From positions 1 through 49,040 of IMG/VR virus record IMGVR_UViG_3300033146_005003: 49,040 nt of DNA; one strand, 5' to 3'. The notes under the pieces are model-generated. The model was not told the origin of the DNA. It saw nothing but the letters and a program-made list of their open reading frames with translations, and made no database searches. Shown here piece after piece: positions 20,023 to 45,290 of this stretch. A program made the translations under genes and the position numbers. The stretch's first letter is position 1. Every line of letters begins with the position of its first letter. This DNA comes from a virus.

Positions 20023-21843
20023 TTAAATATTCATTGTTGGAGCAATAGTAGCTACATCAGTACTATCTCCGGGTAATTCAATATCATATAATAATTTCAA
20101 AACAGCGCCATACCCATATATAATAGAAGAATATAAATCTTTTTTCTGTTTTTTAGGATTTTCTGTATAAAAATGAATCCAATTTTTAGTAGGTCTTGTT
20201 TTAATCATTCTAAACTGCCTAGCAGCAATAGATATAAAATCCTGAACATCAGCAACTGAATCTTCTAATGTACTTGTATCATCCCCACCGGCAAATAACA
20301 ATAAACCAGATTTAAACGCAGTCCTTACACTACCATTAACCCTAGTATTATCTTCATCTGTATATGTTACAAGCCTCAACCTATCATTAGCACTTGTATC
20401 ACCAACCAAAGTAGCTATCCCATTTTCACCATCATCGTCTGGATCAAATAGTATTTCAGCATTAACCTTACCGTCCTTAACAACATGATATAATTGATCT
20501 CTTACACCACTACCACCACCACGCTTATCCATCGCAACTAATAATATATTTGGAAACATATCCAATATTTCATATATCTTTATTGCAGCGTCAGGATCAT
20601 GCATATTTCTTTCCTGATAAGCCCAAATAATATTAGAAAAATCAGTATGACCTTCCTGAGTAATTGGGTTCCAATCCTGTTCCGCAAGTTGACCTATTCT
20701 AATTATAGTAAATGTTGTAAAATCATCTTCCCTCGCACAATCAATACCTAATACACACGGATCATTAGTTTCTAATAAAGGCCTAAGAAACTGTGTTGCG
20801 GATTTTGCTTTTTCTTCATTTTTCTCATCAGTAAACCAAGTATCAGAAAGAACCTGTTTGTTAGTAACAGAATTCATTAACTCATGAGAATAATAATCTC
20901 CTGTTGCTCTCATAGCAACACACAAATGTTCAGAACGCCAAGACTCATAATCTGTTGTTAATTTATTTGCAGCAGCCTCAATATCATCTACCTTAATACC
21001 ATAGGGTGTTTTCCAGAACTTAAGATTCTGATGAAACACCTCTGATGAATATTTAAATTCTTCATCCGGTTGTGCAATATCAAAAGCATCTGGATAAATA
21101 AATTTAACAACTAAATATCGATCATCACCTTTTTCCATCTGTCTAAGATATTCTTCATATTCTAAAGTATAATCATCCTCTGCATATTCTAAAGTACCAG
21201 AATCGATATTTAAATTCTCAAAGTCCCCAGCTTGAGTCACAACATTGTAATCAATAATAGAAAAAGGCTTAATAACCTTTTCTTTAATTTCCTTTTTTAA
21301 ATCTTTACGCTCATCAACATAAGTTATATTAGCTCTAAAACCACGAATAGCATCACCCTTTGTCCCTATAGGCGCAGTGGCTATCACAGAACCATTTTTC
21401 ATAGGAATAGTCCACATTTCAGGGTTTTTACGAATAACTGAACTGGTCATTTTTCTATTACCAGTATCCATCATCTTTAAAGCAAACTTTTTTTCTTCCT
21501 GACCATCAAGTTCACCCTTAATTATTCTTTCAACTTCTTCAATTATAAATTTACCTTGTCTAAAACCACCAGAACCTAACATTAATATTTTCATTCTAGG
21601 ATAAAGCATTGCGGTTAAAATAGCATGTAATGCCTCTCCAAATGTCTTAGACATACCACGGCCAAATAATCTAATAATATCTTTAGCCGTAGAATTCCAA
21701 GTCAACCTTAAATCAAGTCTTTGGTGTGGTGCTAACCTTATACCAAGTAAATCCCTTACAGCAAGAACGGGATGATTCCTATAAAACAAAAGAATTTTAG
21801 GATATAATAATAATTCATCCCTTGTTTTTTTAATCTCCAACAT
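20023..21843 (-). CDS. Terminase large subunit
   Basis: 606 aa from ATG at 21843. An ATG 36 bp further upstream is also in frame, but AAGGTG is correctly spaced from this one and the overlap with the upstream gene is then only 14 bp. It has a Walker A-like LFGRGMSKTFGEAL, a Walker B-like ITYVDER and a nuclease domain with GIDCAREDDFTTFTIIRI and LVAMDKRGGGSG (acidic metal ligands). Motor and nuclease for packaging phage DNA into the prohead. Confidence 0.9.
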   Translation of the reverse strand: MLEIKKTRDELLLYPKILLFYRNHPVLAVRDLLGIRLAPHQRLDLRLTWNSTAKDIIRLFGRGMSKTFGEALHAILTAMLYPRMKILMLGSGGFRQGKFIIEEVERIIKGELDGQEEKKFALKMMDTGNRKMTSSVIRKNPEMWTIPMKNGSVIATAPIGTKGDAIRGFRANITYVDERKDLKKEIKEKVIKPFSIIDYNVVTQAGDFENLNIDSGTLEYAEDDYTLEYEEYLRQMEKGDDRYLVVKFIYPDAFDIAQPDEEFKYSSEVFHQNLKFWKTPYGIKVDDIEAAANKLTTDYESWRSEHLCVAMRATGDYYSHELMNSVTNKQVLSDTWFTDEKNEEKAKSATQFLRPLLETNDPCVLGIDCAREDDFTTFTIIRIGQLAEQDWNPITQEGHTDFSNIIWAYQERNMHDPDAAIKIYEILDMFPNILLVAMDKRGGGSGVRDQLYHVVKDGKVNAEILFDPDDDGENGIATLVGDTSANDRLRLVTYTDEDNTRVNGSVRTAFKSGLLLFAGGDDTSTLEDSVADVQDFISIAARQFRMIKTRPTKNWIHFYTENPKKQKKDLYSSIIYGYGAVLKLLYDIELPGDSTDVATIAPTMNI

Positions 21844-22744
21844 TAACAACAACACCTTGTTTTTTAAGCCAAATATCAAGGTTTTCTATATTAAGCTTTT
21901 TATTTTCGATTTCACCACCATATAATCTTCTCACATATGACATACCAACAAATTCAGGTAACGATCCCCTGTGAACAGCATTGCTAATTAGCGACAATTC
22001 TTCTATTTTATACTCTTTGTCAATATCAATGAACTCAAGCTTAGTTTTTTTATATATTTCTATTAATTCATCGATTGTACCCTGTCGATCTTTTGCTTCT
22101 TGGTTAACACGCTGCTTACCACTAACCCCCAAAGCATCGGATAATTTTATTATCTCCTCGGTAAGAAATTTTGTTATATCTACATTCTCATAATCTTTTT
22201 CATTCATAACATACATAAAAGCCAAGCGGTTCATCATCAACGTATCTACAATACTAGACTTTATAGGGAAGTCATTTAAAAAATCTTCCTTAAATTGTTC
22301 CATTTTAACTTTATCGGAAACAGATAACTCTGATGGATGTGGTGGTTTGGGTGACGAACCAGAGCTACTATCACTTTTAAGCGTAAATTTTTCCTTTAAT
22401 TTTATACTAGTTTTTTTAGTATTTCCAGCAATAATTCTTTTGTTATCTATATCGTACTTATAAACCTTTAACCGTTTTCGTAAAACCTCATACCAGTCAT
22501 CCTGTGGTAAACCCGGCGCTTTTTTCCAAACACTGCCATCTTTTCTAAAACCAGACATACACACATCTAACACTTCACGACAATGTTGTTCGGTAGATTT
22601 CTCAGTCTCACAACCTTTAATTTGACCTATAAAAGCCAAAACCATTTTATTTAAAACCCTGTCATAACTAGCCTTATCGGGAAAGCTTATTCTTCTTATA
22701 TTAGCAACTCTTTTATCTGCTAATGAAACCGGATCAATACCCAT
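21830..22744 (-). CDS. Putative terminase small subunit
   Basis: 304 aa, immediately upstream of and overlapping the large terminase gene. Helical N-terminal region (DKASYDRVLNKMVLAFIGQIKGC), a Ser/Pro linker (DSSSGSSPKPPHPSEL), then a helical region with DALGVSGKQRVNQEAKDRQGTIDELIEIYKKT. No DNA-binding motif is unmistakable and it is longer than most small subunits. Assignment rests on position. Confidence 0.5.
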   Translation of the reverse strand: MGIDPVSLADKRVANIRRISFPDKASYDRVLNKMVLAFIGQIKGCETEKSTEQHCREVLDVCMSGFRKDGSVWKKAPGLPQDDWYEVLRKRLKVYKYDIDNKRIIAGNTKKTSIKLKEKFTLKSDSSSGSSPKPPHPSELSVSDKVKMEQFKEDFLNDFPIKSSIVDTLMMNRLAFMYVMNEKDYENVDITKFLTEEIIKLSDALGVSGKQRVNQEAKDRQGTIDELIEIYKKTKLEFIDIDKEYKIEELSLISNAVHRGSLPEFVGMSYVRRLYGGEIENKKLNIENLDIWLKKQGVVVNVGD

Positions 22745-23524: not shown

Positions 23525-24205
23525 CTATTCCCCCGCAGAATTTTCCTGTTCAATTTCTATGGATTCCAAATAAGACATTAAAACATCTAATTTTTTATAC
23601 AAATCAACTATTTCTAAATCATTTTGAAGATGAAAATCAAAAATAGCATCGTCTAAAGCTGTTTCGCTATCATGTTTTGGTATACCGTTTCCAACAACAT
23701 CACGAACTATTTCTACTGACACACCACCAAGCTGTTTTATCAATTCTAATTCATTAGGAAACCTTACATCAGTAATAACCCAATTAGTATCAGGCTCTCC
23801 TAATATCTGTTGTTTTACTAAATCAACCCAATAATTTTCGTTTTCCACACGACGATAATTCGTACCCCATAATTGTAATAATACCCTATCTTTTTTAGGT
23901 CTACCATATTTTTGAAAAATAATATCACCTGTTATATAATCCACACAGTCTTTATTTTCTAAAATATAATCAACAAACACTTCTTTTATTTTACTATCTA
24001 CAATAAGTTTCATATTTCCGGGGTTGTCATATAAATATAATTCTTTTTTATCAATATTATAATTTATTAAAAGTCTGTTATATTCACCAACCTCTGATTT
24101 TAAAGCCTCTGCAAAACTTATTTTTTTGAAGCCATACTTCTCGATAAGATAATCAGCACTTGTATCTTTACCAGTTCTCATTTTATAACCAAAACCAATA
24201 ATCAT
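23525..24205 (-). CDS. Deoxynucleoside monophosphate kinase
   Basis: 226 aa. N-terminal P-loop GFGYKMRTGKDTSADYL, then LLQLWGTNYRRVENENYWVDLV and VITDVRFPNELELIKQLGG, the set seen in phage dNMP kinases of the T4 gp1/T5 type. It phosphorylates dNMPs to dNDPs to feed phage DNA synthesis. It overlaps the HD-GYP gene by 4 bp. Substrate range is not readable from sequence. Confidence 0.8.
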   Translation of the reverse strand: MIIGFGYKMRTGKDTSADYLIEKYGFKKISFAEALKSEVGEYNRLLINYNIDKKELYLYDNPGNMKLIVDSKIKEVFVDYILENKDCVDYITGDIIFQKYGRPKKDRVLLQLWGTNYRRVENENYWVDLVKQQILGEPDTNWVITDVRFPNELELIKQLGGVSVEIVRDVVGNGIPKHDSETALDDAIFDFHLQNDLEIVDLYKKLDVLMSYLESIEIEQENSAGE

Positions 24206-24825
24206 AATTTAAAACCCTCTATTTTTTGTATACCTTCAAACTTTCCAGATGACGCTAATTCAAAAAATATACCAACAATTTTAGGATCAAACATTTTGCT
24301 GGAATTTCTTGCTATATAATCAGCAGCATCCTGCATAGGCCATGCAGTTCTATATGGCCTATTATCAGTTAATGAATCAAATACATCTGCTATTGCTATT
24401 ATTCTGGCATACAAATGAATCTTTTTACCTTTAAGCCCATCTGGATAACCACTACCATCAAAATACTCATGATGCTGTCTGGCTATCATAGCCTCAGTAG
24501 ATAAATACCTACCGGTTAATATTAATTCACCTATTTCTGAATGACGTTTTACTTCATTATATTCTTTTTTTGTTAGTTTTCGTTTTGCCATGATAATCTT
24601 CGGATCAACACCAAGCTTACCAATATCATGGAGTAATGCAGATCTCCACAAGCTAGACAAATCACCAGCAGGTAGTTTCATTGCAGAACCTATTATATTA
24701 GCATATCCCGCCACCCTATCTGAATGATTTGTTGTATATGTACTCTTTTCAGTTATCTTTATTATTCTCAACATATAAACAATAAGATTGTTTCTTATTA
24801 AATCAATCGATTCCCTACTAGCCAT
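24202..24825 (-). CDS. HD-GYP domain phosphodiesterase
   Basis: 207 aa, essentially a single HD-GYP domain with all signatures: HSDRVAGYA, LLHDIGKLGV, KRHSEIGE, RQHHEYFDGSGYPDGL, ARIIAIADVFDSLTDNRPYR. HD-GYP proteins hydrolyse cyclic di-GMP, and some (V. cholerae V-cGAPs) hydrolyse 3',3'-cGAMP. There is no sensor domain. It lies between a coiled-coil gene and dNMP kinase in the nucleotide/replication block. A role in lowering host second messengers or blocking cyclic-nucleotide defence (CBASS) is inference. Confidence 0.88.
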   Translation of the reverse strand: MASRESIDLIRNNLIVYMLRIIKITEKSTYTTNHSDRVAGYANIIGSAMKLPAGDLSSLWRSALLHDIGKLGVDPKIIMAKRKLTKKEYNEVKRHSEIGELILTGRYLSTEAMIARQHHEYFDGSGYPDGLKGKKIHLYARIIAIADVFDSLTDNRPYRTAWPMQDAADYIARNSSKMFDPKIVGIFFELASSGKFEGIQKIEGFKL

Positions 24826-25319
24826 TATTTTCCACCAACAATATTATTATGTGCAGATAAAACACTTACACCAACATCAATAGCATGTTGTAAAACAATA
24901 CATCTGTCATTTGTATTATTAAAATCTTCCTGAGCATTTATTATCTTTTTCTTAGTTATATTAATTTGATCATCAACTTTTTTTAACTCCTCTGCATAAA
25001 CAACTTCTTCTATATATGCAGTCAATGTATCTAAATTCTTTTTCACTTGATTAGGATATGTATCAGTATTAAGTAAACCTGTTTTTATAATAGAAGCCCT
25101 TGACTTTTTAAAGAACGATAATCTTTCTTTTAATATGCTTAACTCATGCTGTTGCGATGCCTTAAATTGTATAATTTGAGTCAAATAATTTATTTTACTA
25201 AATAACTTCTGCGGCAATGTTTTATTTATTTCTATAGTATTACCAGATAGAAAACTAGCCGGAAATTCAAATTCCGATAAATCTGACCACTTTGGATCTT
25301 TATCAATAAATTCAGCCAT
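24825..25319 (-). CDS. Coiled-coil protein of unknown function
   Basis: 164 aa from MAEFIDKDPKWSDL. An earlier in-frame start lies within the SSB terminator stem and is less likely; AAGGTTGTT precedes this ATG. Long helices (KLFSKINYLTQIIQFKASQQHELSILKERL, EELKKVDDQINITKKKIINAQEDF) suggest a helical, perhaps oligomeric protein. It follows SSB, so an accessory role in recombination or replication is possible. Confidence 0.6.
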   Translation of the reverse strand: MAEFIDKDPKWSDLSEFEFPASFLSGNTIEINKTLPQKLFSKINYLTQIIQFKASQQHELSILKERLSFFKKSRASIIKTGLLNTDTYPNQVKKNLDTLTAYIEEVVYAEELKKVDDQINITKKKIINAQEDFNNTNDRCIVLQHAIDVGVSVLSAHNNIVGGK

Positions 25320-25335
25320 AACAACCTTCTTTATT

Positions 25336-25368
25336 AAAAACAGCGGCATATTATACCGCTGTTTTTTT
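25336..25368 (-). terminator. Bidirectional terminator after ssb
   Basis: AAAAACAGCGG and CCGCTGTTTTT form an 11-bp stem with an 8-9 nt loop, with A/T runs on both sides. It lies directly after the SSB stop. Confidence 0.85.
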
Positions 25369-25383
25369 GTTCAGTTTACAATA

Positions 25384-25923
25384 TTAAAACGGCAAATCAT
25401 CGTCTGATACATCTATTACCGGTGCTTGCTGTACCTGAGAAGCTACGGGCGGTACTTGCTGTGCTTGAGGGGCTACGGGCGGTACTTGCTGTGCTTGAGG
25501 GGCTACGGGCGGTACTTGCTGTGCCTGAGAAGCTACGGGCGGTGCTTGCTGTACTTGAGGGGCTGCGCCGGCTATCTGTTCGGGTTTCGGCCCAACCATC
25601 TGTAATTCATTGGCAATAACTTCTGTCCTATATCTTTTCTGACCAGTATTTTTATCATCCCAACTACTAGTCTGAAGCCGGCCTTCAACATAAACCAAAC
25701 CACCCTTTTTAATATATTCGCCAACAAATTCTGCTGTTTTGCCAAACGCTTTAATACTGTGCCATTCGGTTTGTTGTTCCCACTCCCCCGCAGCATTTTT
25801 TTTGTTATGGTTGGTAGCAATTGTAATATCAGCAATTGCAGTGCCGCTCGGTGCGTATCGCATTTCCGGATCTTTACCAACTCTACCTAATAAAATAGTT
25901 TTGTTCACTGTTCCTCTTGACAT
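25384..25923 (-). CDS. ssb: Single-stranded DNA-binding protein
   Basis: 179 aa. The N-terminal OB fold is clear (MSRGTVNKTILLGRVGKDPEMRY, FGKTAEFVGEYIKKG, VYVEGRLQTSSW, GQKRYRTEVIANELQMVG). The C-terminus is the acidic tail DVSDDDLPF that binds partner proteins. Between them lie five near-identical 10-residue units of the AQQVPPVAPQ type, encoded by 30-bp DNA repeats. It binds ssDNA during replication. It has its own promoter at 25997-26025 and its own terminator. Confidence 0.95.
   Translation of the reverse strand: MSRGTVNKTILLGRVGKDPEMRYAPSGTAIADITIATNHNKKNAAGEWEQQTEWHSIKAFGKTAEFVGEYIKKGGLVYVEGRLQTSSWDDKNTGQKRYRTEVIANELQMVGPKPEQIAGAAPQVQQAPPVASQAQQVPPVAPQAQQVPPVAPQAQQVPPVASQVQQAPVIDVSDDDLPF
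25421..25570 (-). repeat. Five tandem 30-bp repeats in the ssb linker
   Basis: Units at 25421, 25451, 25481, 25511 and 25541 each encode a Gln/Pro/Val/Ala-rich decapeptide. Adjacent units differ at only a few bases, so unit number is likely to vary between related phages. Confidence 0.95.
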
Positions 25924-26026: not shown

Positions 26027-27376
26027 TTAAAAAGCATCTGACTTATCCGCACTATTAACATATTCAGTTGAGTAAGCCAAATCAGCTAACTTCATTTGTC
26101 TTGGCATATGTGACACTCTTAACCTACCTGTTTCATTATTTCTGTATTTAGCAATAATTATTTCCATCGTTCCCGCTGTTTGAGAACCGTCCTCCCACGC
26201 AACCACACCATTCTTAGCTGGATTATATAAAAATAACACCATATCAGAATCTTGTTCAATAGCGCCGGATTCTCTTAAATGAGATAATGCAGGTCTAACA
26301 AGCTTACCAAAGTCTTTATCTATTTCACGGTTTAATTGAGCTAAATTAAATACAGGGATATCTAACTCCATAGCAACTGACTTTACAGCTTTAGACACTT
26401 TAGTTACTTCAACTTGACGAGAGTCAGCCCTGCCATGATAATCAATTAATTGTAAATAATCCACAAATAACGCTTGAACACCGTAAAGATCTTTCATTCT
26501 ACGAGCAGTTGCCTTTAACTGCATATCATTCATTTGGCCTATGCTTTCAATAAATATTGGCAGTTTTTCTATTTTATTCCAAGCTTTAACAAGTTGTTGC
26601 CATTCATAATCGGTTATTTCACCAGATTTAATTCTAATAAAACTTATATTCGTTATAAATGCAACAAGCCTTATATAAAGATCTTTAGCAGACATTTCGA
26701 GTGAAATAAAACCAACGGGCACACCCGCAATAGCATTATGTAAGGCAAACTGTAAAGCAATAGCCGTCTTGCCCGAACCGGGTCTACCAGCAATAGTAAT
26801 CATTTCACCACCACTAAATCCCGGACACAATTTATTAAAACTCTTAATATCGGTACTTGCTTTAAATGGTACAGCACCATTTTCTCTGATATTTTTAATC
26901 TCTTCCATTGCCAATATGCCGGCCTGCCTAACACTAACAAGTGTATCGTTAGCTATATGATGAGATGAAATATCAAGCAACTTACCTAAAACTAAGTCAA
27001 TAGCTTTTTTAGAATCAAGATTATTATCAACAGACTCACGTAAATCTTTAGATGACTGATCTAGTAGATTTGTTACAATCCTACTTAAATAAAGATCTTC
27101 AAGTAATTTATAATATTCATCTATATTACTAACAACATAATCACTTGACATAATCTTATCTATTAAAAAAGGATCTGATTTTGCTTTAACAGTTGTAATG
27201 TCAATAGGAAGATTTTGATGACGCATTGTTTTTAATAAAACAAAAACATCTTGATTTAAACTAGAATAAAACCACAATTTATGGATTTTAATATATTTAT
27301 CAAGAAGATTGGGCTCCGTTAAAAAACAAGCCAAAATAGATAATTCTAATTCATTGTTATTTTGAGCCAATACCAA
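26027..27376 (-). CDS. Replicative DNA helicase, DnaB type
   Basis: 449 aa. N-terminal helical domain (residues 1-115), then RecA-like ATPase: ITIAGRPGSGKTAIALQFA (Walker A), VGFISLEMSAKDLYIRL, VQALFVDYLQLI (Walker B) and LSHLRESGAIEQDSDMVLFLY. It unwinds DNA at the phage fork. Its start overlaps the upstream gene by 20 bp, suggesting translational coupling. Confidence 0.95.
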   Translation of the reverse strand: MVLAQNNNELELSILACFLTEPNLLDKYIKIHKLWFYSSLNQDVFVLLKTMRHQNLPIDITTVKAKSDPFLIDKIMSSDYVVSNIDEYYKLLEDLYLSRIVTNLLDQSSKDLRESVDNNLDSKKAIDLVLGKLLDISSHHIANDTLVSVRQAGILAMEEIKNIRENGAVPFKASTDIKSFNKLCPGFSGGEMITIAGRPGSGKTAIALQFALHNAIAGVPVGFISLEMSAKDLYIRLVAFITNISFIRIKSGEITDYEWQQLVKAWNKIEKLPIFIESIGQMNDMQLKATARRMKDLYGVQALFVDYLQLIDYHGRADSRQVEVTKVSKAVKSVAMELDIPVFNLAQLNREIDKDFGKLVRPALSHLRESGAIEQDSDMVLFLYNPAKNGVVAWEDGSQTAGTMEIIIAKYRNNETGRLRVSHMPRQMKLADLAYSTEYVNSADKSDAF

Positions 27377-32300: not shown

Positions 32301-33299
32301 TTATAAAACCCTCCCACTTACAACAACTTCCCGTAGTACAAACACACTAAATTCTTCAGCAAATTTATAATCAGGACGATCTGGAAGCCGGCTGTTATCT
32401 TTAGCAGATTCAATTTCTTTGAACAATTTTTGTGAGTATGTATTCACTTTTTCTAAATTCCAAAGCCCATTTTTAATATCAATTAACATCTGAGAATCAT
32501 TTACTCTGTTTACATTAAGCTCTGATGTTTTCATAAGCTCTATTCCCATTACAAGCAATCTTATTAAATGTGAAGCATGTTTTGTATCATAATCAAACCT
32601 ATCAATAACAGGCTTACGCTTACTGCTATAATACTTAGAATTAAGCCCTTTAGTCATTTTCTGAGATTGTGCATGTGCATATCCTACAAATGCTTTATAA
32701 GCAAGCTTACTAAGGAATTTGTCACGGTTTTGAATCAAAATATCTGATATACTAGTTTTTTTGATATAGTGTTCTGGATCAAGCCATAACAACGACATAA
32801 TATTAGGATTAGAATTTAATAGTAATTGCAAGTATTTTTTAAACTCATAAAATACTATATCAAGATCATCTTTAATAATAGTTAGTGTATTTTTGTTACC
32901 AAGAGTACGTGTCCATAGATAATGGTTTGCAGGGGGAATAATAATTCCTATTATGTCTCTATCAGAAAGATCTGAATTTGTACCATAAACAATACTTCCA
33001 TTCCAACCCAACAATACAGCACGGTCAAATAAATCAAATTTATTATAATCGGACAACGCTTTATTAAAACCAGATATATCTATTCCGGGTGCTGGAGGTT
33101 TAATAACCTCAAGTAAATAACTTGGTATTCCATCTATACCATCACCACGATCAATATCAATCCAATAACCATGCTCATTTACTGTTTCTCTATTTGGTGT
33201 TGCGTCAACAACTTTACCTAAACTTCTCTTGTCATCTTGATACACAATAACATAATCACCGTTATTAATCTCAACATCTTTTCTATCAAGTGCCTTCAT
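32301..33299 (-). CDS. Phage nucleotidyltransferase (YcgL/COG3541-like)
   Basis: 332 aa. After about 90 residues with a possible SH3-like N-terminal part, the catalytic motif reads LLGWNGSIVYGTNSDLSDRDIIGIIIPP: GS-x-x-YGT...SDxD is typical of the predicted nucleotidyltransferases found in many large phages. A further block AYKAFVGYAHAQSQKM...KHASHLIRLLVMGIELM matches the helical C-terminal part of that family. Substrate unknown; it may modify RNA, nucleotides or proteins. Confidence 0.75.
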   Translation of the reverse strand: MKALDRKDVEINNGDYVIVYQDDKRSLGKVVDATPNRETVNEHGYWIDIDRGDGIDGIPSYLLEVIKPPAPGIDISGFNKALSDYNKFDLFDRAVLLGWNGSIVYGTNSDLSDRDIIGIIIPPANHYLWTRTLGNKNTLTIIKDDLDIVFYEFKKYLQLLLNSNPNIMSLLWLDPEHYIKKTSISDILIQNRDKFLSKLAYKAFVGYAHAQSQKMTKGLNSKYYSSKRKPVIDRFDYDTKHASHLIRLLVMGIELMKTSELNVNRVNDSQMLIDIKNGLWNLEKVNTYSQKLFKEIESAKDNSRLPDRPDYKFAEEFSVFVLREVVVSGRVL

Positions 33300-44052: not shown

Positions 44053-44081
44053 AATATAAGCATTGGACTTAAATAATGCAA
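44053..44081 (-). promoter_or_regulatory. Early sigma70-like promoter, leftward
   Basis: TTGCAT, 17 bp, TATATT on the minus strand, 38 bp before the 44015 start. It probably drives the unit that includes the integron cassettes. Back to back with the rightward regulator promoter. Confidence 0.78.
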
Positions 44082-44132
44082 CTTTAATTAATCTTAAAAA
44101 CTTATTATATAATTATAGAATTTCTATATCCA

Positions 44133-44155
44133 CCCCCGTTGTATTTTTGGGTATA
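44133..44155 (+). promoter_or_regulatory. Palindromic control box, copy 6 (upstream of regulator)
   Basis: CCCC, centre GTTGTATTTTT, GGGTATA on the plus strand. It lies between the divergent promoters, about 50-75 bp upstream of the predicted start of regulator transcription. A TTATTA-N17-TATATC sequence precedes it. Confidence 0.82.
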
Positions 44156-44171
44156 GGTAGAAAATATAATG

Positions 44172-44200
44172 TTGCAAATATATATTTAATACATTATATT
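44172..44200 (+). promoter_or_regulatory. Promoter of the regulator gene
   Basis: TTGCAA, 17 bp, TATATT on the plus strand. The predicted transcription start falls at about 44207, the first base of control box copy 7. Confidence 0.75.
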
Positions 44201-44206
44201 ATTGTT

Positions 44207-44230
44207 ATACCCGTTGTATTATTGGGTATA
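44207..44230 (+). promoter_or_regulatory. Palindromic control box, copy 7 (at regulator +1)
   Basis: TATACCC, centre GTTGTATTATT, GGGTATA: both arms perfect. It covers the predicted +1 of the regulator transcript, the usual place for a repressor operator. Confidence 0.85.
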
Positions 44231-44269
44231 AGTAGTAATGGTTTTTTTAATTTCAAGCAATGGTATGGA

Positions 44270-45043
44270 ATGAAAACAGCAACCAGAATAAATACAGAAT
44301 TAGCAATTATTATGAATACCAAAGGCCTGAGAAAACCATTGGCTTTATATTTTCTGATAAAATCTAAATACAAACACACTATTATTTATAATGTAAATTA
44401 TAATAAAATAGGTAATATTACTGGTTTAAATCCTAAAACCGCAAAAAAATATATTTCACAATTAAAATCATTAGGCTTAGTTAAGTTCGTAGATAATAAC
44501 TTACTATTTATAGGACTTAATAAAGTCAAAGAAAAATTTGATATTCACACACCAGATGTTTATGTAGAAACAAGACCATGGACTAAATTTAAAGGTATGT
44601 TAGATAGAATAGATTATTCTATCATTAAAAACAACGGAAGACAACAAGATTACAGAAGAGCTCTACGTTCTGAACAATTAAAAGGAACAATTCTTGATGG
44701 AAGAGAAAAATCAAAGGTAGAAAAAGCCAAAAAAGAAAATGGCTTAGACACCGATGATAAAAATGCTTTCACAGAAAAGAACACTGACATAAGATTCAGT
44801 AGTCGACAGTTGTCAAAGTTATTAGGCATATCTCATACATCTGCAAACCTACAATTAAGATCATTACAAAACAAAGGTTATTTGCAGGTAAAACAAAAAA
44901 TAGAAAAAATTAAAGATATGATCTTTGATGAAAATTCTATTGGTTACATTAACATGCTGAATAAGGTCTCCCCCGGTTATTATTTCTTTAACAGAGGAAA
45001 ATTATATCAGCATTTAGGAGTTTCTTTGTTCTTTCTCGTTTAG
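44270..45043 (+). CDS. Double winged-helix transcriptional regulator
   Basis: 257 aa from MKTATRINTELAIIMNTKG. A longer open frame exists, but its first 69 residues would translate the two control boxes; GGTATGGA precedes this ATG. Two DNA-binding HTH units are seen: KIGNITGLNPKTAKKYISQLKSLGLVKF and SRQLSKLLGISHTSANLQLRSLQNKGYLQV. A basic linker lies between them (residues 110-180). It is the only rightward protein gene. With two control boxes in its promoter it is the best candidate for the factor that binds the boxes. Confidence 0.8.
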   Translation: MKTATRINTELAIIMNTKGLRKPLALYFLIKSKYKHTIIYNVNYNKIGNITGLNPKTAKKYISQLKSLGLVKFVDNNLLFIGLNKVKEKFDIHTPDVYVETRPWTKFKGMLDRIDYSIIKNNGRQQDYRRALRSEQLKGTILDGREKSKVEKAKKENGLDTDDKNAFTEKNTDIRFSSRQLSKLLGISHTSANLQLRSLQNKGYLQVKQKIEKIKDMIFDENSIGYINMLNKVSPGYYFFNRGKLYQHLGVSLFFLV

Positions 45044-45207: not shown

Positions 45208-45280
45208 GCCGGTATAGCTCAATAGGAAGAGCATCTGTTTTGTAATCAGATTGTTGTGGGTTCAATTCCTGCTGCCGGCT
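45208..45280 (+). tRNA. tRNA-Thr (anticodon UGU)
   Basis: Full cloverleaf of 73 nt: acceptor GCCGGTA/TGCCGGC, D arm GCTC/GAGC, anticodon loop TTTGTAA (with a T-T mismatch closing the stem) and T arm GTGGG-TTCAATT-CCTGC. CCA is not encoded. Reads ACA codons. Downstream of the regulator gene on the same strand, followed by a terminator. Confidence 0.93.
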
Positions 45281-45290
45281 CAAAAAAAAA

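Follow-up and report, generated by a model that had tools for sequence, protein, structure and literature searches.

A stand-alone HD-GYP protein in the core gene block of a phage lineage, a candidate cyclic-dinucleotide phosphodiesterase

Described HD-GYP proteins and the phage family member

HD-GYP phosphodiesterases most commonly act on c-di-GMP, and some also cut 3',3'-cGAMP (PMC8177086). In the structure of PmGH, the GAF-HD-GYP protein of Persephonella marina (4mcw), R314 and K317 bind guanine base 1, the Lys of the KPG loop touches guanine base 2 solely via its main-chain carbonyl, and the residue at position E185 sorts HD-GYPs, Tyr or Phe marking a predicted binuclear subgroup (PMC4159591). 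Sequence motifs are a fallible predictor of activity: four of nine V. cholerae HD-GYPs were active, a set not wholly as predicted, with VCA0681 active though it is devoid of a residue that PmGH needs and VCA0931, predicted active, negative in c-di-GMP assays (PMC4212101). For phages, Iyer et al. 2021 predicted that the HD-GYPs of jumbo phages counter SMODS/CRISPR nucleotide signals (PMC7824862). Our open-literature search found no experimental test of a phage HD-GYP role; the original prediction was therefore right to call such a role little explored experimentally, but the idea itself had already been put forward by Iyer et al.

The window analyzed here, 49,040 bases long, comprises an entire IMG/VR virus record, and nearly all of its genes lie on the minus strand. 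One minus-strand ORF of 207 codons, reading from an ATG at 24825 to a TAA, exactly fills positions 24202-24825, across which the plus strand has many stop codons. An HD-GYP gene had been proposed at this place with no strand named, and the proposal is borne out. The 207-aa protein matches Pfam HD_5 (3.4e-31, 108.7 bits; cut-off 27.2 bits), and its best PDB sequence relatives are V-cGAP3, a 3',3'-cGAMP phosphodiesterase of V. cholerae (5z7c, 2.3e-39), and PmGH (1.6e-32). The HD-GYP domain covers approximately residues 26-193 and is accompanied by one N-terminal helix, in agreement with the earlier claim that a sensor domain is absent; PmGH, in contrast, carries a GAF domain. The PHROGs scan returned no family covering the protein. 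A PADLOC match to Cas3 (4e-5) was taken to reflect the common HD fold, and Cas3 identity was rejected. A chance ORF is contradicted by five viral homologues with 41-44% identity at the same locus and a dN/dS of ~0.057 in the closest pair. The assignment as a probable HD-GYP enzyme is well supported by family match, predicted fold, active-site conservation, and purifying selection.

An AlphaFold model based on an alignment of 109 sequences reached a pLDDT of 92.5 (60 with the six phage sequences only). It displays the five-helix HD core plus additional C-terminal helices and matches HD-GYP structures over its full length. In Foldseek and VIA-align comparisons, HD-GYP structures ranked top, with VIA Z scores of 25.5 for PmGH (202 residues, 33% identity), 25.5 for the HD-GYP domain of PA4781 (4r8z; 199 residues, 28% identity), 23.6 for DvhD (9rbz), and 19.4 for V-cGAP3, followed by 16.2 for the c-di-AMP phosphodiesterase PgpH. 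The PA4781 domain has the same fold but belongs to a REC-HD-GYP response regulator, unlike the stand-alone phage protein. In BFVD, a set of predicted viral structures, E-values under 0.001 were limited to two matches, Gp79 of phage G and a fragment of a viral "GGDEF protein". The HD-GYP of Microcystis phage MaAM05 is 32.5% identical to the window protein; the jumbo-phage HD-GYPs, compared here by their published description, likewise reside in phage genomes (PMC7824862). These carriers are large-genome phages, whereas in the present case the gene is a lineage core gene in a ~49-kb record.

Active-site residues

Alignment to PmGH located seven of its eight metal ligands in the phage protein (H34, H66, D67, H95, H118, H119, and D147; Table 1). 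The complete metal set of the HD superfamily (H...HD...H...HH...D) is thereby represented, and it is invariant across the six phages of the lineage described below. K70, the equivalent of the catalytic Lys K225, comes after the HD dyad, and the HHExxDGxGYPxxxxxxxI signature is present as HHEYFDGSGYPDGLKGKKI. Further PmGH-mapped residues that are kept include D150, G126-Y127-P128, I136, R156, and R159; equivalents of K225, GYP, I294, D308, R314, and K317 (R/K) are found in the window and in all five relatives. The substrate-contact RxxK pair is formed by R156 and R159, the latter being Lys in the relatives. Q117, which precedes the two His residues, is near-universal in the bacterial comparison set, but this is uninformative because the set was retrieved by a QHHE pattern.

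Table 1 Features of the window discussed in the text
Feature	Position	Strand	Evidence
Terminase large subunit (TerL)	20023..21879	-	resembles the TerL annotated in Bacillus phages Stahl and Slash
Deoxynucleoside monophosphate (dNMP) kinase	23525..24205	-	phrog_139 1.6e-40; Pfam DNMK 5.6e-12
HD-GYP phosphodiesterase gene (predicted), stand-alone, 207 aa	24202..24825	-	ORF, Pfam HD_5, AF2, VIA
R156-P-Y-R159, guanine base-1 clamp (PmGH R314/K317)	24349..24360	-	alignment; structural role from PMC4159591
D147 (metal ligand, PmGH D305) to D150 (PmGH D308)	24376..24387	-	PmGH alignment
HHEYFDGSGYP, residues 118-128, metal ligands H118/H119 and GYP loop	24442..24474	-	translation, PmGH alignment
H95, metal ligand (PmGH H250)	24541..24543	-	PmGH alignment
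KPG-type loop site, A80-K81-R82 here, S-D-K/R in relatives	24580..24588	-	alignment
H66-D67, HD dyad (PmGH H221-D222)	24625..24630	-	PmGH alignment; invariant in 6 phages
H34, first metal ligand (PmGH H189)	24724..24726	-	PmGH alignment; invariant in 6 phages
Y30, aligned with E185, the third-metal ligand of PmGH; five relatives have His	24736..24738	-	alignment
Helical (possibly coiled-coil) protein, directly upstream of HD-GYP	24825..25349	-	adjacent in 6/6 phages
Intrinsic-terminator-like hairpin, 14-bp stem, then T's	25336..25366	-	-18.3 kcal/mol, z -7.1
Single-strand DNA-binding protein (SSB)	25384..25923	-	Pfam SSB 5.6e-39
DnaB-like replicative helicase	26027..27376	-	Pfam DnaB_C 2.5e-67

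The protein differs from PmGH at three sites. The carboxylate that characterizes the trinuclear (E/D-T-G) subgroup at E185 is replaced by Y30 in the window and by His in the relatives; outside the lineage, only 5 of the 171 rows from bacteria and viruses have His here. All six phages carry Ser in place of D183 (S28 in the window), as do V-cGAP3 and 21 of 78 bacterial rows. The same S-x-Y arrangement, that is both replacements seen in the window protein, thus occurs in a solved cGAMP phosphodiesterase; unlike the window protein, V-cGAP3 contains another HD-like stretch at its N-terminus and retains KPG, and it does not group with the phage proteins in our tree. Finally, the KPG substrate loop is absent throughout the phage lineage. 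This loop is common rather than defining: exact KPG occurs in 29 of 78 rows from bacteria and in 32 of 93 from other viruses. Its Lys is present in 69 of 78 and 82 of 93, respectively, while the window has Ala and the relatives Ser. The original statement that all catalytic motifs are present therefore holds for seven of eight metal ligands, the Lys, GYP, and the clamp, but not for E185, D183, and KPG.

Following the published rule, Y30 places the window protein in the Y/F subgroup, so that its metal centre is probably di-metal (PMC4159591). The retention of R156/R159 together with the loss of KPG suggests that the base-1 guanine site is maintained and the base-2 side altered, which would bear on specificity. 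Given the Ser at D183 and the lost KPG loop, affinity or specificity may differ from those of PmGH.

Genomic setting and conservation in the phage lineage

Besides TerL, the window encodes portal, endolysin, capsid, and tape measure proteins, DnaB, SSB, a dNMP kinase, an SbcD-like phosphoesterase, and a sigma-70 region-4 protein. The placement of the HD-GYP gene in a phage nucleotide block, as originally described, was confirmed, with SSB and DnaB upstream and the dNMP kinase downstream. The start of the kinase gene overlaps the HD-GYP stop by 4 bases, and the stop of the helical-protein gene overlaps the HD-GYP start (TAATG). The true start of the helical protein is probably the ATG at 25319 (MAEFIDKDPKWSDL); Pfam and PDB searches yielded no relative of it above the cut-off. 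The hairpin stands between the SSB gene and the helical-protein/HD-GYP/dNMP kinase genes and was not seen at the equivalent spot in the three relatives that were folded. A search for a c-di-GMP riboswitch in the window with Rfam gave only a tRNA. This single tRNA-Thr (TGT; 45208-45281, plus strand) adjoins a large plus-strand HTH gene (44063-45043). We also observed an RlaP-type nucleotidyltransferase (32301-33299, minus strand; Pfam 4.5e-23, phrog_388), possibly linked to RNA repair, and a tandem Gln/Ala/Pro-rich repeat (QQVPPVAPQA) in the C-terminal tail of SSB (25422-25619), which gives rise to spurious overlapping plus-strand ORFs in the same interval.

No integrase was found when most of the larger window ORFs were scanned against PHROGs, Pfam, NCBIfam, and PADLOC. 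A pattern-seeded search of 84,980 GTDB species genomes found no TerL relative, and hence pointed to no prophage or host, which suggests a virulent phage, although sampling may explain the result. The source is probably a virulent, uncultured tailed phage.

A TerL scan of IMG/VR identified five relatives with 57-60% TerL identity, all metagenomic contig fragments of 20-38 kb; searches with the HD-GYP and the helical protein added no member with the same gene block. The HD-GYP gene occupies one conserved locus in all six lineage members, lying in each of the five relatives between the helical-protein gene and the dNMP kinase gene. The common gene order is SbcD, DnaB, SSB, helical protein, HD-GYP, dNMP kinase, sigma, TerS, TerL, and portal. 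Two relatives have an extra gene of ~186-189 aa between HD-GYP and the kinase (L003, 7363-7923; L005, 7325-7894). Mean identity between window and relatives was 59% for TerL, 43% for HD-GYP and portal, 41% for SbcD, 37% for TerS, 34% for DnaB, 33% for SSB, 28% for the dNMP kinase, and 26% for the helical protein, so that HD-GYP is second only to TerL and tied with the portal. Compared among themselves, the five relatives show the highest conservation in TerL (85%), then in HD-GYP (78%), then in the helical protein (77%). In the closest pair (L004-L007), the HD-GYP dN/dS of 0.057 compares with values of 0.032 (TerL), 0.101 (portal), and 0.305 (dNMP kinase); most other pairs were saturated. Retention in six of six phages, the second-ranked identity, and this dN/dS indicate a core rather than an accessory phage gene.

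A 179-row tree, obtained by a quick search with SH-aLRT and no bootstrap, unites the six phage HD-GYPs in a single clade (SH-aLRT 100). This clade has a long stem, lacks a supported sister, and is separate from the HD-GYPs of the 78 bacterial rows. Almost all of the closest bacterial proteins contain several domains: of 79, 76 have at least 260 aa and three are shorter. Scanning 2.9 million viral contigs for HHExxDGxGYP revealed 110 stretches; 31 of the proteins recovered lie outside the lineage and are shorter than 260 aa, and each of these retains its metal ligands. Some of the signature-bearing contigs may be provirus or host DNA. Stand-alone HD-GYPs are rare yet recurrent among viral contigs. 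An HD-GYP gene just upstream of TerL and portal (L206, 6875-7516; L208, 6932-7522; L209, 6644-7543) was also seen in at least two further types of phage, whose terminases are unrelated (phrog_2 in L206 and L208, phrog_38 in L209). Repeated acquisition near the packaging module is possible; as a phrog_2 terminase is present in 14 of 32 HD-GYP contigs and is nearby in only some, this position is not general.

Possible roles during infection

With moderate confidence, we favour a catalytically competent, sensor-free HD-GYP phosphodiesterase that would act on guanine-containing cyclic dinucleotides and reprogram the host or its surface. The enzyme would be made from the core replication and packaging gene block, its di-metal centre and K70 would activate a water that cuts the 3'-5' phosphodiester of the cyclic dinucleotide, and R156 and R159 would read one guanine. 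Such guanine reading leads us to expect c-di-GMP or 3',3'-cGAMP, most probably c-di-GMP as the commoner HD-GYP substrate. Since a regulatory domain is lacking, the enzyme is presumably always on after translation and would drain the host messenger pool during infection. The host might then leave its high-c-di-GMP state with respect to surface polysaccharide, pili, and adhesion, and re-adsorption of progeny or competitors could fall. In E. coli, PdeL, which lowers c-di-GMP, removes a phage receptor and protects cells from N4 (PMC8669472). On the benefit to the phage we can only speculate: it might be such a change of host surface or lifestyle, or the removal of an immune messenger. The two roles originally suggested, control of host motility or biofilm state and blunting of CBASS, are both candidates. 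Against the favoured reading stand the Ser in place of D183, which is essential in PmGH, the missing KPG loop, the fallibility of motif-based prediction, and the capacity of one HD-GYP fold, that of DvhD, to bind c-di-GMP as a receptor. The idea that recycling of c-di-GMP to GMP supplies the phage with nucleotides was dismissed because of the pool size.

Destruction of an immune messenger would make the protein a counter-defence enzyme that shields the phage by degrading a CBASS signal, e.g., 3',3'-cGAMP, or a related cyclic di- or oligonucleotide. Iyer et al. 2021 propose this role for jumbo-phage HD-GYPs (PMC7824862), and anti-CBASS nucleases are reported from phages (PMC9117128). The best PDB sequence match, V-cGAP3, shares the S-x-Y signature, and loss of the KPG loop could widen base-2 tolerance; however, the match is a similarity score only and the tree does not group the two proteins. 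The gene lies, moreover, in the replication block, and none of its neighbours was recognised as an anti-defence gene. Genes for counter-defence often have a patchy distribution and evolve quickly, and retention in six of six relatives at core-gene constraint fits basic takeover better. We regard counter-defence as rather unlikely, and action against CBASS in particular as possible but unsupported.

The replication genes and the dNMP kinase nearby, together with the changed KPG loop and the replaced E185 and D183, would also agree with an HD centre acting mainly on another nucleotide in a salvage block (pGpG, small RNA, 2',3'-cyclic or nucleoside phosphates), and nucleotide phosphohydrolases are common among the HD proteins of phages, one example being DatZ, a weak fold match. 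Yet the protein retains the GYP motif and the guanine clamp, which sets it apart from HD proteins of the nucleotidase type, and VIA Z scores range from 25 to 16 for HD-GYP/PgpH structures versus ~13 and below for other HD folds, which makes this reading improbable. The helical protein is a possible HD-GYP partner, as the two genes always adjoin and are under equal constraint within the five relatives (77% versus 78%). The HD-GYP protein might then be a non-catalytic module, working with the helical protein and binding either c-di-GMP or GGDEF proteins of the host; the HD-GYP fold of DvhD is reported to bind c-di-GMP as a receptor and is observed with the ligand bound (9rbz; PMC13090378). A pure binder could lose its metal ligands, but these are invariant in six phages, and we consider a solely binding function very improbable.

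Returning to the favoured phosphodiesterase, a broader and tentative reading, which we hold to be doubtful, is that removal of guanine-containing cyclic dinucleotides is near-obligate in the cycle of this lineage, carried out by an HD-GYP with an altered base-2 loop and third-metal site and a dedicated helical partner, and that unrelated phages acquired theirs independently. If the protein is active, it would represent a viral second-messenger-clearing enzyme kept as faithfully as structural genes, and cyclic-dinucleotide removal would belong to basic phage biology, beyond an arms-race extra. The stand-alone HD-GYPs of phages could form an unexplored class of host-control or counter-immune enzymes.
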